The translations under genes and the position numbers were made by a program. DNA of 64,000 nt from Sporosarcina sp. ANT_H38 (GTDB lineage Bacteria > Bacillota > Bacilli > Bacillales_A > Planococcaceae). The stretch spans positions 1 to 64,000 of the forward strand of contig NZ_VOBC01000004.1 in the NCBI RefSeq assembly GCF_008369195.1, given 5' to 3'. Below, piece by piece: positions 6,354 to 16,331 of this stretch (its first letter is position 1; each line of letters starts with the position of its first letter). The notes beneath the pieces are model-generated. The model was not told the DNA's origin. It made no database searches and saw nothing but the letters and a program-made list of their open reading frames with translations.

Positions 6354-7547
6354 TTAATTTGCGAAAACTTTTTTGATATTTCCGATTGCCCAGTCCAACT
6401 CGTCTTTTGTAATAATAAGTGGTGGAGCAAAGCGAATCACTGTATCATGTGTTTCTTTACATAGCAATCCGAGCTCTTTCAACTCTTCACAATATGGACG
6501 AGCAGCTTCATTCAATTCAACACCAATGAACAATCCACGTCCACGTACTTCTTTAATCGACGGATGTTCAATTTTCTTTAACTCTTCCATAAAATAATTT
6601 CCGAGTTCAAGAGATTTTTTCGCCAATTCTTCTTCTTGCAGCACTTCTAAAGACGCGATTGATACTGCACACGCCATAGGATTTCCACCAAAAGTTGAAC
6701 CGTGCGATCCAGGATTGAATACACCAAGAACGGATTTGTCAGCAAGCACACAAGATATTGGGAATACGCCGCCACCTAGTGCTTTACCTAGGATATACAT
6801 GTCTGGATCAATGTCTTCCCATTCACATGCAAACATTTTCCCAGTACGACAAAGGCCTGCTTGAATTTCATCTGCAATAAATAGAACATTGTTCTTTTTA
6901 CAAAGTTCACGTGCGGCTTTCATATAACCAGCTGGCGGAATAACAATACCTGCTTCGCCTTGAATCGGTTCGATAATGAATGCAGCAGTATTCGGTGTAA
7001 TTACAGCTTCAAGCGCTTTAATATCACCGTATGGAATAAGATTGATGCCTGGAAGCATTGGCCCAAATCCACGTTTATATTCAGCATCCGAGGATAAAGA
7101 AACAGCTGTCATTGTACGACCATGGAAGTTTCCTTCACACCCAATGATTTCTGCTTGGTCTTCTGCAACCCCTTTAACATCATAAGCCCAGCGACGCGCT
7201 GCTTTAATAGCTGTTTCGACAGCTTCAGCTCCTGTGTTCATAGGAAGTGCCATTTCTTTGCCAGACAGTTCACAAATCATTTCATACCATGGACCAAGTT
7301 GGTCGTTATGGAAAGCACGAGAAGTAAGCGTTACTTTATCTGCTTGGTCTTTCAACGCCTGAATAATTTTCGGATGACGATGCCCCTGATTTACTGCTGA
7401 ATATGCAGAAAGCATATCCATGAATTTATTACCTTCTGGATCTTTTACCCAAACTCCTTGTGCCTCAGAAATAACAATTGGCAGTGGATGATAGTTATTT
7501 GCCCCAAATTTCTCTGTTTGTACAATTACTTTTTCTGATACCGTCAT
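6354..7547 (-). CDS. rocD: Ornithine aminotransferase
   Basis: 397 residues; class III PLP-dependent aminotransferase that converts ornithine plus 2-oxoglutarate to glutamate semialdehyde plus glutamate. Visible motifs are the opening [30 protein letters not shown], the PLP-contact [19 protein letters not shown], and the lysine of [22 protein letters not shown] lies 6 bases before the ATG. It is flanked by P5C dehydrogenase upstream (across a short repeat) and glutamate dehydrogenase downstream. That context supports ornithine use over other class III substrates. Confidence 0.93.
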
Positions 7548-11262: not shown

Positions 11263-13425
11263 TCACTGCTCTACAATGGCTTTCGGAGCTGTTTCAATCA
11301 ACCATATCTCAACTCCTTCATCCCAGATTAACCAACCGTCATAGATAGGGTCTCCTCCCTTTGTATAACTAATCGGAACAATAGGAACATCATTCAATGT
11401 ATTGGTCCCCATCTCGTATAAAGTATCCGCCTGTCCAATGTCGTACTTCTGTTTCTTCCAATTAGTAATGAATTCTTCCTCCGTAAGCGAAATAGATTCA
11501 TAATTAGTCAGATGCCACATCGTCTTTGGATCCTCTTGTTCATTGGCATACAGATAGACGCCGAACACGACTAACGGTTCAACGCCTGCCAAAGTACTAA
11601 GCTGATGTCCGCTAGAGAATTTCAAATATGTCGTTTCAACTTCTTGAATGTACTCAGGATCATTGATGGCCACTTCGCTCCCGCTTTCTGGTATTACACT
11701 TTCAAAAGTGAATAAATGGAGATCCCCCCTTTTGGCAAGACCCACAGCTTCATAGAGATGATGGTACTCGAGTCGTTCTAAACTGTCTGACTTCTCCCAG
11801 TCACTCTCTTCCATTTCTTTTACGATTTGTTGCATAATGTGCGCCGATGGAGAGTTTACTCCTATGTTAGCAAGTTTTTCCCAAGCTGAACGGTACTCTT
11901 TTCTCAATTTCCCATCACTCCCCGTTAAACGACCATCTTCATTTCGAATAAATCCTTCATAAAATAGGTTGTTATAAAAACCGAGTACGTTTTGGTAAGA
12001 AATATCCTCTTGTTGATCAACAAGCAACGTATTTTCCAGCTCAATAATATAATTTAGCGTTTCTTCTAGAGAGAATTCTGACCCATCTACCCAGTAGTTC
12101 ATTGAATTCGATTCCAAAAACGTCATATACCCTCTAAAGTCTTCATGAATTGAATCTCGTATTGCCAAACTGACTTCATTATTAACATATATCGGAAAGA
12201 ATTTATTCCCGGAGTCATTGAAAAGCCCAATGTTTTGGTCTCCTATTGCTTCCAAAATTTCTCTAACTTCTTCTGGGTATGTATTTTTCTCCAGAAGAAG
12301 TTTTTCAATATCTATCGTTCCATATTCAAGTTTTTCAGTAATTACCTCTCTATGTTCGAATAATGCAAACCTATATAAGTCACTAACCCAATTGACTTTA
12401 TTTATATATGCTTTTATAAACGCCTCGCTAGCAGCCCTGTCATCCGTTAGTGGATTTTTCAGCAGCTTAGCAATCATTTCTGAAGGGTATTCCAAATTCC
12501 CCATAATTTCTTCGTATTGTTCCTGCACATTTTCTCTGTTTATTTTTTCATTGTTAGTTAGTTGCTTTTGAAGTTTCTTCGTTAACTGCTCAAACTGTTG
12601 ACGTTCATCCTGTCCGTACGTATCTCCGTAGGATACTTCCATTTCCCCCTTAGGTTCAACGAGCCCTAGTTCCATGTACTTTGTTGCCATCTCATTTTCA
12701 AAAGAAGTGTTCAAGTGTGCTAGGTACTTTTCATCGGAAGACTTCTTGTATTCTTCGCTTGTCACGACTGAAATAGTAAACAGGATTACCAGTAGAAGAA
12801 CACCACCTATCCATAAAAAAAGAGCTTTCTTTGTTATTGATTTCTTGTCAGATCGAACTTCTGTTGAACTTTTAACAAGGTCCTGAAAAACCATCTCTTT
12901 TCTGAATGAAGTCCTCATTCGCAAATATGATTTATCGAGAAATTCTAGCCTCTTTTCTAGTTGTGCATCTTCCAATTGATTGTGCGCCGCTGTAATAGCC
13001 TGTTGAACTCCCTCTGGAGACGTATCCATAATCGCGGCAATCTCCAATTCATCCAGCTTATGAAATTCCGATAGAATGAATGGCACTTTTATTCTCATTT
13101 CTAGTTTCACAATCTGGTCATGCAATTCTTGATCCTCTTTAAATGCTAAAATAGATTCATTTTCCTGAATCTCTCGTTGAGCAAACGCAAGACTATTTAA
13201 TACATTTTTATATAACGCGCAAACGAGTGACGCTTCATTGTCAAAGGATTCAAGCTGAATATGTAACTTTCTAAACGTTTTCTCTGCCACTTCGCCCGCC
13301 TGTTTTAACGAACAGCCAAATTGCACGGCAAAACGCTCAATGTCACCCGAATAGATGTCCATCCATTTTTCAAAAGCTTCTCTCTCTCCGGCTCTCACCT
13401 TTTGCATCAATTCAAATTCTTTCAT
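11263..13425 (-). CDS. Fusion protein: degenerate ECF-sigma-like domain + anti-sigma-like membrane protein
   Basis: 720 residues. Residues 1-150 follow the two-helical-domain layout of the adjacent ECF sigma (e.g. RAGEREAFEKWMDIYSGDIERFA against the sigma's QQGDKVAYGEL). The basic DNA-contact residues are largely lost: STVKTRLHRAK of the sigma is replaced by EGVQQAITAAH. Residues 155-185 (LEKRLEFLDKSYLRM) match the N-terminus of the neighbouring anti-sigma-like protein. One membrane helix (201-220) and a 500-residue outer domain follow, sharing YPSEMI...NPL and YANE-DP-TM with the neighbour. ATG at 13425 has AGAGAGGA at 6-7 bases; TTG at 13431 is too close. It looks like a duplicated sigma/anti-sigma pair fused into one gene. 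Confidence 0.75.
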   Translation of the reverse strand: MKEFELMQKVRAGEREAFEKWMDIYSGDIERFAVQFGCSLKQAGEVAEKTFRKLHIQLESFDNEASLVCALYKNVLNSLAFAQREIQENESILAFKEDQELHDQIVKLEMRIKVPFILSEFHKLDELEIAAIMDTSPEGVQQAITAAHNQLEDAQLEKRLEFLDKSYLRMRTSFRKEMVFQDLVKSSTEVRSDKKSITKKALFLWIGGVLLLVILFTISVVTSEEYKKSSDEKYLAHLNTSFENEMATKYMELGLVEPKGEMEVSYGDTYGQDERQQFEQLTKKLQKQLTNNEKINRENVQEQYEEIMGNLEYPSEMIAKLLKNPLTDDRAASEAFIKAYINKVNWVSDLYRFALFEHREVITEKLEYGTIDIEKLLLEKNTYPEEVREILEAIGDQNIGLFNDSGNKFFPIYVNNEVSLAIRDSIHEDFRGYMTFLESNSMNYWVDGSEFSLEETLNYIIELENTLLVDQQEDISYQNVLGFYNNLFYEGFIRNEDGRLTGSDGKLRKEYRSAWEKLANIGVNSPSAHIMQQIVKEMEESDWEKSDSLERLEYHHLYEAVGLAKRGDLHLFTFESVIPESGSEVAINDPEYIQEVETTYLKFSSGHQLSTLAGVEPLVVFGVYLYANEQEDPKTMWHLTNYESISLTEEEFITNWKKQKYDIGQADTLYEMGTNTLNDVPIVPISYTKGGDPIYDGWLIWDEGVEIWLIETAPKAIVEQ

Positions 13426-13554
13426 AGGCAATCCTCTCTTTCAATACAGCACACTAATTACTACAACTATACCAAAGATTACGCAGATTTCAGACTTTTC
13501 CTTGCAATTAAATAGACTGCCACAATGAAACATGACAGCCTTAGTTATTTTAAT

Positions 13555-15729
13555 TTACTGCATCGGCATGAATAACACGCGCCAACCCTTTTCCGTCCAT
13601 ACCAGATGAAAATCTTTCACAGGTTTTTCATCTGGAAACTTCTTCGTATCCACAGTCAGCTTCGCAATGCCACGCCAGTTCCCATTTTCATCTTGTTCTT
13701 GCCCTTTAAATGACATTTTTGTATACATCGCCTCAGAATACGATGGCGCTTCTTGTAAATACGTTTCCTTATCGACAATCGGATACCCTTCCCCTTGGAA
13801 AAACAGTGCATATTGCGTCTCGTAATCACCCAGTTCTCCAGCGTAGAAATAGAGGGCTGCAATGGTCAGTGCTTCTTGGCCAACTAAGTGTATCGGATCT
13901 TTTGTTTTTGAGAATGGCCTATAAATATAGCGCACATAATCCATTACCCCCTCGTCAATATCCATTTCAGGCTGTTCTTGATAGGAAGGAAGAGGTTCCA
14001 TCCTAACATCCGACACTTCCCATCTTTCGTTTTCATCATAAATCACATTGACACTTCTACGTATCTCCCCATCGACTACAATTCCAACTGAACCCGTAAA
14101 TGTTTGTTCAAAACGCTGAATGTATTCTGTGTTAAATTCAATCTGCGTCGCATCTCTGAATAAAGACAATCCTTTACCCCAGTTGTCAACATATCTTTCA
14201 GGAGTCCATTCTATCCCACTTTCAGAGTATTGGTTATTGTTCTCATGGAATAGATGATACATCGTTTCTGGATCATGCATTTCATTCGCATAATCAAAGA
14301 CGCCCACGACATAAATCGGTGATTTGCCTTTAAATATTGACTTGTCATACGACTTCTTGAATGCCTTGTATAGCATATGAATTTCATTTTCGAGCGTAGA
14401 GTTCGGCAAATACATTGTCTCATCTTGGAAATCCGGTCTCTTCCCATACATATAGAATTCCAATTGACCTTCTCGATAGAGAACCAATGCATCTTTTAAT
14501 GCATCATAGGAAAGTTTTTCCCAATTAGCAGATTTCCTCCAACCCGTAGCCTCCATCTCCTCGACAATAGGCTTAACGACATAGGCTAGCGGGGTCGCAT
14601 CACCGCTACTCGCAAAACTTTCCCATGCTTGTTGATAGTCGCTTTTTAAGACGCCTTTCTCATCGAAAATTTGTATATCTTTGGAGCCTTTCATTACTTC
14701 AGTGAAAATTGTGATGAAATACGATTCCAATACAGGATATAATGTCGAATCCCGTTCCACTTCCATTAACGTCTTTTCCATACTCTGCACCATCGACACA
14801 GTTCGATCCAATGGATATTGAAGAGTTGCACCATACATATACGGTTCTTCGACAAGCATATCAATATAGGCGAACATCATTGGGGCAAGGTTGGTTTTCA
14901 ATTCTTGTTGGAGGGATACTTCATAATAACGAGCTCCGATTTCTCCTGAATTACTGTTCGTCTGCAAGCGTATGGACTGTTCCCTCATCGTGCTAATGAT
15001 ATTTTGAAGCTGTTCTGGAAATTTATTGCGGCTAACAAGCATCATGATCTCTGCCTTATCAACAGATGCATCCACATCATAAGCGTCCACTGCCTCGCGA
15101 TTTTCTGCGAGGATTTCGTCGTAAACTGTAATAAGACTCAATACTTTAGAACGATATGAAGCGAGGAATACGATACTCTCCTGTTCATCTTCAACGAGTG
15201 GATTTTCTACAACTTCTTTTATCATTTCAGAAGGTAATTTCAGATATGCCAGGGCACGTTCGAAGTCTTTTTCTAGCACTTCTCGACTATTGTCGAACTT
15301 AGCGTAACGTTTACTGCTTGTAATCGACTTATCGGCATATGCGATAAACTCAAGTTTCGCAAACTTATCTTCTTCCAACTTTAAAGTTTCCCTACGTTTC
15401 TCACGTTCAACCCTATACTTTGCTTTCAATTCTTCTATATCCTCAACAGTAACTTCCTTTGATGTCATCTCTTCAGGGTTATTCTTTTGTTCGAACATTA
15501 AAGATGCCGTAATGAATCCGAACAGGAATACACTGGCGATACTGACTGCCCAAACGACCAAATTAGGCTTGAATCTATTTTTCACCCTGAAGGAAGTTTC
15601 ATCAGTCCCTGGCTTGGCAGTATCCTCTTCAATTTTCTGGAGCACTTCCTCACTGTCGAATGTTGAAGGGATGCGCTCATACGACTTTTTGAGAAATTCC
15701 ATTCGTTTTTCGAATTTATTATTTTCCAT
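13555..15729 (-). CDS. Membrane-anchored anti-sigma-like protein with large extracytoplasmic domain
   Basis: 724 residues: a cytoplasmic N-terminus of about 55 residues (FEKRMEFLKKSYERIPSTF), one membrane helix (about 57-78), then about 645 residues outside the membrane. Two copies of a motif are visible: FDYANEMHDPETMYHLF and LYFYAGELGDYETQYALF. This suggests repeated modules in the outer part. The start ATG at 15729 overlaps the end of the sigma gene by 11 bases and has GGAGGT 7 bases upstream, so translation is coupled. Position, topology and coupling are those of an ECF anti-sigma factor. No zinc-binding HxxxCxxC motif is present. Confidence 0.75.
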   Translation of the reverse strand: MENNKFEKRMEFLKKSYERIPSTFDSEEVLQKIEEDTAKPGTDETSFRVKNRFKPNLVVWAVSIASVFLFGFITASLMFEQKNNPEEMTSKEVTVEDIEELKAKYRVEREKRRETLKLEEDKFAKLEFIAYADKSITSSKRYAKFDNSREVLEKDFERALAYLKLPSEMIKEVVENPLVEDEQESIVFLASYRSKVLSLITVYDEILAENREAVDAYDVDASVDKAEIMMLVSRNKFPEQLQNIISTMREQSIRLQTNSNSGEIGARYYEVSLQQELKTNLAPMMFAYIDMLVEEPYMYGATLQYPLDRTVSMVQSMEKTLMEVERDSTLYPVLESYFITIFTEVMKGSKDIQIFDEKGVLKSDYQQAWESFASSGDATPLAYVVKPIVEEMEATGWRKSANWEKLSYDALKDALVLYREGQLEFYMYGKRPDFQDETMYLPNSTLENEIHMLYKAFKKSYDKSIFKGKSPIYVVGVFDYANEMHDPETMYHLFHENNNQYSESGIEWTPERYVDNWGKGLSLFRDATQIEFNTEYIQRFEQTFTGSVGIVVDGEIRRSVNVIYDENERWEVSDVRMEPLPSYQEQPEMDIDEGVMDYVRYIYRPFSKTKDPIHLVGQEALTIAALYFYAGELGDYETQYALFFQGEGYPIVDKETYLQEAPSYSEAMYTKMSFKGQEQDENGNWRGIAKLTVDTKKFPDEKPVKDFHLVWTEKGWRVLFMPMQ

Positions 15730-16273
15730 AACTCGCACCTCCATTCTTGTCGATTGCTTTTTTCAAGCCATCCTTAGCGCGATGTAATCGTGTTTTCACA
15801 GTGGATAGAGGGATATTTAGCACGTCGGCAATTTGTTGGTACGATAAGTCCTGAAAATAGAAAAGTATAAGTGGTATCCGGTATTTTTCATCAAGCTTCA
15901 AAATCGCATTATGCAGTTCGAGGTCTTCTTCGAATAGAAGTATCTGCGTTTCAGCTGAATTCTGAGCTGGATAGAGGTTAGTTCCGTTAGCCTTCGCTTT
16001 TTTTTCCCGTTCACGATGTTCTTTCCTGTAGTAATCACGGGCCGTATTTAACGTAACCTTATATAACCATGTCGTGAAACGGTCTTGTTTGAATTGATGC
16101 AGAAACCTGTAAAGCTTGATGAACACTTCTTGCGTAACATCCGGTATATCGTCAAGATGCACACCGCATTGGTAGGCAAATTTCTCTACCGTCCGATAAC
16201 GTAAATTCATTAGTTCTCCATAGGCAACCTTATCCCCTTGTTGGGCTTTTATTATCAATTCCATTTCGTCCAT
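15719..16273 (-). CDS. RNA polymerase ECF-type sigma factor
   Basis: 184 residues with intact region 2 (DVTQEVFIKLYRFL, FTTWLYKVTLNTARDYYRK) and region 4 (LDEKYRIPLILFYFQDLSYQQIADVL, PLSTVKTRLHRAKDGLKK). This is the size and layout of B. subtilis SigX/SigW/SigV-type factors. It is the first gene of a two-gene unit with the overlapping anti-sigma-like gene. An upstream TGAAAC-N17-CGTATC promoter implies self-activation. The stimulus is unknown. The paralogous fusion at 11263-13425 lies just downstream. Confidence 0.93.
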   Translation of the reverse strand: MDEMELIIKAQQGDKVAYGELMNLRYRTVEKFAYQCGVHLDDIPDVTQEVFIKLYRFLHQFKQDRFTTWLYKVTLNTARDYYRKEHREREKKAKANGTNLYPAQNSAETQILLFEEDLELHNAILKLDEKYRIPLILFYFQDLSYQQIADVLNIPLSTVKTRLHRAKDGLKKAIDKNGGASYGK

Positions 16274-16302
16274 GATTCCACCCCCCTCTTACTTCTATAG
16301 GT

Positions 16303-16331
16303 GATACGTTGCTTTGTTGGTAATTGTTTCA
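16303..16331 (-). promoter_or_regulatory. ECF-type autoregulatory promoter of the sigma gene
   Basis: On the minus strand, -35 TGAAAC (16326-16331), a 17-bp spacer and -10 CGTATC (16303-16308), 30 bp upstream of the sigma start codon. The TGAAAC/CGT pattern is the classic ECF promoter of Bacillus (SigW, SigX, SigM). Autoregulation by the adjacent sigma is inference from position. Confidence 0.75.

Follow-up and report, generated by a model that had tools for sequence, protein, structure and literature searches.

The window analysed here is a 64,000-nucleotide stretch of Sporosarcina sp. ANT_H38 (contig NZ_VOBC01000004.1, positions 1 to 64,000). On its minus strand lies an operon for an extracytoplasmic function (ECF) sigma factor and a membrane protein, MEM, followed by a gene in which a sigma-like part and a MEM-like part are joined. 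A first-pass annotation had described a 184-residue sigma, an overlapping 724-residue membrane protein and a 720-residue fusion, and all three frames are indeed open:

15719..16273, minus strand: ECF sigma factor gene, 184 amino acids, intact, frame open (Pfam Sigma70_r4_2, 8e-18; Sigma70_r2, 1.5e-12)
13555..15729, minus strand: MEM gene, anti-sigma-like single-pass membrane protein, 724 amino acids; likely start 15729, frame open to 15744
11263..13425, minus strand: fusion gene, 720 amino acids (pseudo-sigma, anti-sigma-like segment, transmembrane helix, extracytoplasmic domain); frame 11263-13431

The likely MEM start overlaps the sigma stop (15719) by 11 bases, and the likely start of the fusion is the ATG at 13425, preceded by AGAGAGG.

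The fusion resembles both neighbours far above chance. Residues 3-151 match the sigma (E = 9e-9, 32% identity) and residues 152-660 match MEM (E = 1e-45, 26% identity), as the first-pass annotation had seen in outline, and the homology of both parts supports its proposal that a duplicated sigma/anti-sigma module became one gene. Profile searches also recognized the sigma-like part, through the NCBIfam models for SigY (residues 2-152, 8e-8) and SigW (residues 7-77, 4e-7), yet both scored far below their curated cut-offs; Pfam returned region 4 alone, at 0.0037 and below cut-off. In the predicted structure the N-terminus retains the sigma2 and sigma4 folds, and its top matches in the PDB are SigW and CnrH, both taken from anti-sigma complexes. 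The parts of the fusion and of MEM are placed as follows:

12970..13425, minus strand: pseudo-sigma domain, fusion residues 1-152, without region 2.4 (20 residues gone after about residue 82)
12877..12966, minus strand: juxtamembrane anti-sigma-like segment, fusion residues 154-183 (EKRLEFLDKSYLRM...), corresponding to MEM residues 4-37
12775..12831, minus strand: fusion transmembrane helix, residues 199-217 (low-confidence model and hydrophobic sequence)
11266..12774, minus strand: fusion extracytoplasmic domain, residues 218-720 (predicted model)
15619..15720, minus strand: putative anti-sigma segment of MEM, residues 4-37, two helices (AlphaFold predicted local distance difference test, pLDDT, 49-55, modelled without the sigma partner)
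15499..15555, minus strand: MEM transmembrane helix, residues 59-77 (low-confidence helix in the model and hydrophobic sequence)

From sequence and model together, we have little doubt that the fusion gene encodes a receptor that crosses the membrane once and carries, as its cytoplasmic N-terminus, a degenerate ECF sigma of the same family as the neighbouring operon.

To assess the nature of this degeneration, we aligned 20 intact sigmas and 42 fusion rows from Sporosarcina with 4 proteins of a set denoted MFU, 13 rows from other genera, 2 young fusions (both described below) and 16 other ECF sigmas. The last came from 26 other region-2 matches in the window's genome, of which 20 were taken and L112, L116, L117 and L121 excluded as long or low-scoring. 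The 13 other-genus rows represent 12 proteins, one Bhargavaea protein appearing twice (L099, G102), and the G107 frame is without most of sigma region 2. The sigma of G023 (short at the N-terminus) and split or contig-edge fusion fragments (G014, 188 amino acids; the first copy of G023; C89 of G027; G041, 505 amino acids) were excluded, and the counts include one of the two G269 copies. Region labels follow what we take to be the usual ECF numbering.

Four generic ECF features are lost from the fusions. The region 2.2 motif (D45, Q48 and E49 of the local sigma) serves binding of core RNA polymerase (RNAP); Q48 occurs in none of the 42 Sporosarcina fusions versus 14 of the 16 other ECFs, and is present in 2 of the 13 other-genus rows and in both young fusions. 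W69 of region 2.3 is likewise found in 0 of 42 versus 15 of 16. Region 2.4, for the -10 element, is gone from all 42 Sporosarcina fusions, from 4/4 MFU proteins and from 12/13 other-genus rows, compared with 0/16 other ECFs. Finally, all three basic residues of region 4.2, for the -35 element, occur together in 0/42 fusions versus 7/16 other ECFs, a loose criterion in that each single one is present in 11-14 of the 16; this last loss had been picked out by the first-pass annotation. Other residues show the opposite pattern, being kept in the Sporosarcina fusions and rare in the other ECFs: Q35 (39/42 versus 0/16), G37 (42/42 versus 1/16), F114 of the FxEDxxLH motif (42/42 versus 2/16), E116 together with D117 (41/42 versus 1/16) and H121 (37/42 versus 1/16). 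For the aligned stretch, Sporosarcina sigmas have a median net charge of +1, 7 other-genus sigmas +4 and other ECFs 0, as against -10 for the fusions and -8 for the young fusions.

At the level of sequence, this loss of generic ECF features with retention of family-specific residues is a double dissociation. It also agrees with the earlier suggestion that the membrane-joined sigma part no longer drives transcription, and we predict that the pseudo-sigma cannot act as a promoter-recognising sigma. A working one-chain sigma/anti-sigma that frees an active sigma by proteolysis, as described for the membrane fusion IutY, would share the layout, and several members are labelled sigma factors in databases; with the region 2.2 Q, the region 2.3 W, region 2.4 and the region 4.2 basic residues lost and the charge moved from about +1 to -10, such an activity is scarcely credible.

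The layout of MEM, as judged from sequence and model, is anti-sigma-like: its gene overlaps and trails that of an ECF sigma, and a cytoplasmic N-terminus, one transmembrane helix and an extracytoplasmic domain follow one another in the protein. We regard its N-terminal segment, in which L13, K14, S16, Y17, R19 and P21 are conserved, as a putative anti-sigma; for the corresponding segment of the fusion, an anti-sigma role is suggested by the operon arrangement and by homology to MEM. MEM has no Pfam family above cut-off and no NCBIfam match, hence none to the anti-sigma families held there, and identity as a zinc-binding class I anti-sigma (ZAS) was rejected on finding no Cys or His in residues 1-56 and no zinc motif. 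Foldseek returned no PDB match for the MEM model at E ≤ 0.001, with weak NTF2-like rows at most. A known family for the extracytoplasmic domain was also sought and rejected: in a Pfam scan (E ≤ 0.05) of 42 aligned relatives, 5 of them fused members, sigma region 4 (5 members) was the only family to match more than a single relative. As a separate observation, the C-terminal part of MEM (window 13558-13935, residues about 600-725) also matches separate proteins of 372-405 amino acids in the same genus (for example in G007, G010, G020, G029 and G038).

We examined the distribution of the system in 61 Sporosarcina genomes, the window's own and 60 others. Members of the sigma/MEM/fusion system were found at strong E-values in 34 of them and fusions in 32, G029 and G036 having the sigma and MEM pair only. 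A sigma orthologue (E ≤ 1e-25) was identified in 21 of the 61 genomes, which is 21 of the 34 with the system, and 19 genomes carry both a free sigma and a fusion. The other 13 of the 34 (G002, G003, G005, G009, G013, G014, G015, G021, G027, G033, G041, G059 and G060) keep the fusion with no orthologue of the free sigma at this threshold or of the free MEM. A sequencing or assembly artefact, which the first-pass annotation had named as a possible undoing of the fusion, was rejected, as relatives exist in many genomes and 33 database proteins, the window's own included, match it.

The system occupies one chromosomal slot (36 loci from the 34 genomes). Its neighbours, named here from their sequences alone, are an aminotransferase, frequently accompanied by a sodium-symporter-like gene, at one end, and at the other a gene with an S1 domain, a sigma-54-activator-like gene and an aldehyde dehydrogenase. 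The three-gene order of sigma, MEM and one fusion recurs (the window, G031, G032, G053 and others) and the slot is constant, but gene content varies among loci: sigma and MEM with two fusions (G035, G038, G051), sigma with a shortened MEM and a fusion (G026, G039, G050, G058), one or more fusions alone, or the sigma and MEM pair alone. No receptor gene without a sigma or pseudo-sigma was present in the mapped loci. Split or frameshifted fusion-type copies (L059 10647-12769, L082 8506-10246, L071 6548-8729, L156 3440-6048) mark the birth and death of copies at the slot. One locus, L094, is titled Arthrobacter beigongshangensis REN13 and carries a Sporosarcina-type locus; the label appears to be wrong.

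At family level, the fusion alignment was run against 261 genomes and found matches in 163 of them (E ≤ 1e-20). In group g47 (Planococcus/Planomicrobium), at least 40 of the 46 genomes have an open frame of 846-900 amino acids under the fusion match; among these 40, 33 matches begin inside the sigma-like part and 7 frames were assigned by length alone, one of which (G193) has a pseudo-sigma when mapped. In the remainder, G195 is split, G197, G198, G207 and G219 are matched with frames not among the rows listed, and G201 has no match. No free sigma of the system's family appears for g47 among the matches listed, down to 8e-36. All 20 loci mapped from the family, 18 of them from other or newly sampled lineages, lie in the same slot. 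Fusions were found in g47, g39, g36 (Bhargavaea), two further Sporosarcina genomes (G269, G272) and G170 and G178 of group g46; sigma and MEM are separate in G171 and G176 (g46), G233 (g48) and G299 (Viridibacillus, g53).

These distributions bear on the earlier proposal that the fused sigma part is a decoy for the local anti-sigma. As such an anti-anti-sigma, a membrane-held analogue of PhyR (discussed below), the pseudo-sigma would compete with the true sigma for the MEM segment, with constitutive expression setting a threshold. Because 13 of the Sporosarcina genomes with a fusion show neither the cognate sigma nor a free MEM, and because no free sigma is among the matches listed for the Planococcus group, at least 40 of whose 46 genomes have fused-length frames, this is not a general role. 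It is possible in the 19 Sporosarcina genomes with both sigma and fusion, where MEM would need to be present; taken as a whole, we consider the decoy rather unlikely.

We next compared the regions upstream of the sigma operon and the fusion, which in the window contain the following features:

16305..16331, minus strand: ECF-type promoter-like TGAAAC-N17-CGTA of the sigma operon
13466..13474, minus strand: extended -10 TGGTATAGT of the fusion gene, sigma-A-like
13514..13541, minus strand: terminator-like hairpin between MEM and the fusion gene, read from the sequence and including G-U pairs (a better-paired copy is present in G027)

The scan ran from 140 bases before each frame to 60 bases inside it, for 20 sigma genes and 31 first fusions (one for each genome, including MFU and excluding G023). 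TGAAAC-N14-18-CGT precedes 17/20 sigma genes versus 1/31 first fusions, while TGnTATAnT precedes 27/31 first fusions versus 0/20 sigma genes; shuffled sequences gave expectations per set of 0.02-0.10 for the ECF motif (0.02 of the 20 sigma genes) and 0.4-0.6 for TGnTATAnT (0.6 of the 31 fusions). The remaining three sigma genes have a TGAAAC variant one base off. Fusions and sigma operon are thus distinguished by predicted promoter type, sigma-A-like versus ECF. The sole fusion with an ECF motif is that of G014, a genome that has lost sigma and MEM: here (L071, about 6470-6600) what remains of the lost sigma, namely its promoter, ribosome site and initial codons, abuts the fusion promoter. On this sequence evidence it is the footprint of a sigma and MEM deletion and shows a possible route to the fusion-only state. 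At two g47 loci, G189 and G195 (L154, L156), the sequence before the fused gene has TGAAAC followed by CGTATAAT and resembles an ECF promoter on its way to becoming a sigma-A promoter.

Ratios of nonsynonymous to synonymous substitution rates (dN/dS) were calculated by the Nei-Gojobori method. From 26 fusion pairs, 2 without a domain border and 2 without a finite value were removed to leave 22, and 8 of 9 sigma pairs gave finite values. The pseudo-sigma ranges from 0.16 to 0.40 (22 pairs) and the intact sigma from 0.05 to 0.11 (8 pairs), so that by this measure the pseudo-sigma is under purifying selection. Where both genomes carry the cognate sigma the median is 0.23 (11 pairs, 0.16-0.33), and where neither does it is 0.29 (9 pairs, 0.24-0.40); the two sets of pairs also differ in lineage. 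That selection persists in the sigma-less pairs is a further point against a decoy. The fusions might also be decaying relics, neutral by-products of a failed duplication: copies in G014, G023, G041 and G195 are split or cut, constraint is weaker than on the intact sigma, and 27 of the 61 same-genus genomes have no match. Set against this are the dN/dS range itself, long open frames at most loci, the occurrence of fused-length frames among g47 genomes (at least 40 of 46), a promoter motif of their own in 27/31 first fusions and a second origin in another genus. We judge neutral decay to be very unlikely.

This second origin emerged from phylogenetic analysis. In the tree of the sigma part, fusions and MFU proteins form a single branch (Shimodaira-Hasegawa-like approximate likelihood ratio test, SH-aLRT, 100) within the system's sigma family and apart from other ECFs; in that of the receptor part, the fusions fall to one side and MFU within MEM, with Bhargavaea uncertain on a long branch. 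Sporosarcina and Planococcus/Bhargavaea fusions join at 97/99, though on long branches. In a wider tree of the sigma part, the G170 and G178 fusions stand next to the intact G176 sigma with 96/91 support and at a distance from the old fusions. This grouping among intact sigmas led us to reject one common origin for all fusions, and the sequences indicate at least two, that of G170/G178 being independent and younger.

These young sigma-MEM fusions of g46 (L160 4605-7310, L161 2647-5334), in a group where G171 and G176 retain the two-gene operon, keep region 2.4, Q48 and W69 and have lost D45, K160 and R165. Two region 4.2 basic residues are changed, and the TGAAAC...CGTA promoter is still in place. 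The MFU proteins (G003, G005, G013 and P0033; 844-871 amino acids) join a pseudo-sigma to a MEM-type receptor. Their three genome copies (L061 1778-4345, L062 8506-11088, L063 8250-10865) have the fusion-type promoter, in genomes without a detected free sigma orthologue. We read them as chimaeras, the sigma part grouping with the fusions and the receptor part with MEM, although a third independent fusion is possible; for the sigma part, an approximately unbiased (AU) test spoke, at a borderline level, against a tree placing MFU with the 24 intact sigmas (p = 0.041, Bhargavaea left out). Separately, the fusions of G000 and G009 (L054 4264-6432, L057 6204-8369) are 69% identical in the sigma-like part and 36% in the extracytoplasmic part; the receptor part may evolve faster or have been exchanged.

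How might such a receptor work? We give roughly even credence to a mechanism in which the pseudo-sigma is a built-in partner of its own anti-sigma segment, onto which it would dock within the same chain. A receptor plugged in this way would need no sigma and release none, cutting the link to transcription; the sigma domain would have been freed from transcription and retained for the covalently adjacent segment. Docking in cis would explain the persistence of fusions without the cognate sigma/MEM pair, the changed promoter type, the finding that every receptor gene at the loci mapped comes with a sigma or a pseudo-sigma, and the repeated origin of fusions.

Several observations weigh against docking in cis. 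In excerpts of PMC7406223, class I anti-sigma helices, and likewise CnrY, sit where sigma4 binds DNA and where sigma2 binds RNAP; the surfaces eroded in the pseudo-sigma are those contacted by these helices, so the losses may weaken docking. The family-specific residues that are kept lie elsewhere. The second anti-sigma helix is poorly retained among fusions. The fusion model has a predicted template modelling score (pTM) of 0.52, and the higher confidence of its helix 156-168 (pLDDT 86-92) may stem from continuity with the sigma domain. The match of the pseudo-sigma to SigmaE:RseA, SigE:ChrR, AlgU:MucA, SigK and BldN:RsbN is confined to a single domain (77-89 residues); SigG1 and SigJ, structures without a separate anti-sigma, match it over its whole length. 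Compared with the intact sigma, the pseudo-sigma is under constraint weaker by a factor of about three, the median dN/dS of sigma-less pairs is the higher of the two given above, and 27 of the 61 Sporosarcina genomes yield no match to the fusion. Residues kept in the pseudo-sigma could also serve the fold alone or another partner. Such a partner, another anti-sigma or a non-sigma protein in the cytoplasm, could be bound in trans by a pseudo-sigma released or exposed through regulated proteolysis. The conservation of the pseudo-sigma without the cognate pair is compatible with this, as is the activation of IutY through proteolysis in excerpts of PMC5411451; the constant neighbourhood holds no obvious partner gene, no genome-wide search for one having been made, and we find a partner in trans unlikely.

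The joining of sigma and anti-sigma and the degeneration of a sigma domain each have precedents. According to excerpts of PMC5411451 and PMC8999054, IutY (ECF243) is a membrane fusion with a working sigma, released by Prc/RseP proteolysis, and ECF48, ECF52 and ECF53 are sigma/anti-sigma fusions proposed from domain layout. They share with the window fusion an ECF sigma domain, a transmembrane helix and an extracytoplasmic regulatory part in one chain. However, their sigma is functional, whereas the window fusion has lost the promoter- and RNAP-contact parts, and the anti-sigma domain of IutY is periplasmic, whereas the putative segment of the fusion is cytoplasmic, between sigma part and transmembrane helix. 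PhyR, in excerpts of PMC8103513, is the anti-anti-sigma of the alphaproteobacterial general stress response, with a degenerate sigma-like domain and a C-terminal receiver domain, acting on NepR in trans. Here too promoter and RNAP contacts of an ECF-like domain are degenerate and the fold retained, but the window fusion has a transmembrane helix, an extracytoplasmic domain and its putative anti-sigma segment in cis; it matched no receiver family in Pfam at E ≤ 10, a search in which HMMER filters drop most matches above 0.1. SigW/RsiW and CnrH/CnrY provide the best structural matches of the pseudo-sigma, and the modelled MEM segment may plausibly adopt a two-helix layout like that of CnrY, but these are separate proteins with a functional sigma, and MEM has neither a zinc motif nor an anti-sigma family match above cut-off.

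The first-pass annotation knew of no described family with this layout. That holds for the degenerate form, as searches of open-licence PubMed Central (PMC) text found no sigma/anti-sigma fusion described as having a degenerate sigma part, nor any paper on the window fusion's family; it does not hold for working fusions (IutY, ECF48/52/53) or for mimicry of the PhyR kind, both known from the excerpts cited. What appears to be new is the combination of the two, fusion and sigma mimicry. More speculatively, a sigma may have turned at least twice into a non-transcribing receptor domain that a stimulus frees, or for which it swaps anti-sigma segments; such a membrane-anchored one-chain partner switch, for which we would claim only a modest chance, might be a kind of signalling without a description in the same open-licence text.

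Database proteins of Sporosarcina and Planococcus/Planomicrobium that bear the name sigma factor (P0065, P0066, P0070, P0097 and P0098 among them) are probably not sigma factors. A bacterial transcription factor has apparently been repurposed more than once, with intermediates surviving: the intact operon, a young fusion with region 4.2 eroded and region 2.4 present, chimaeras, and old fusions without the promoter-contact parts and the RNAP motif. This series offers a natural dissection of the sigma residues needed for RNAP and promoter from those that possibly serve the anti-sigma partner.

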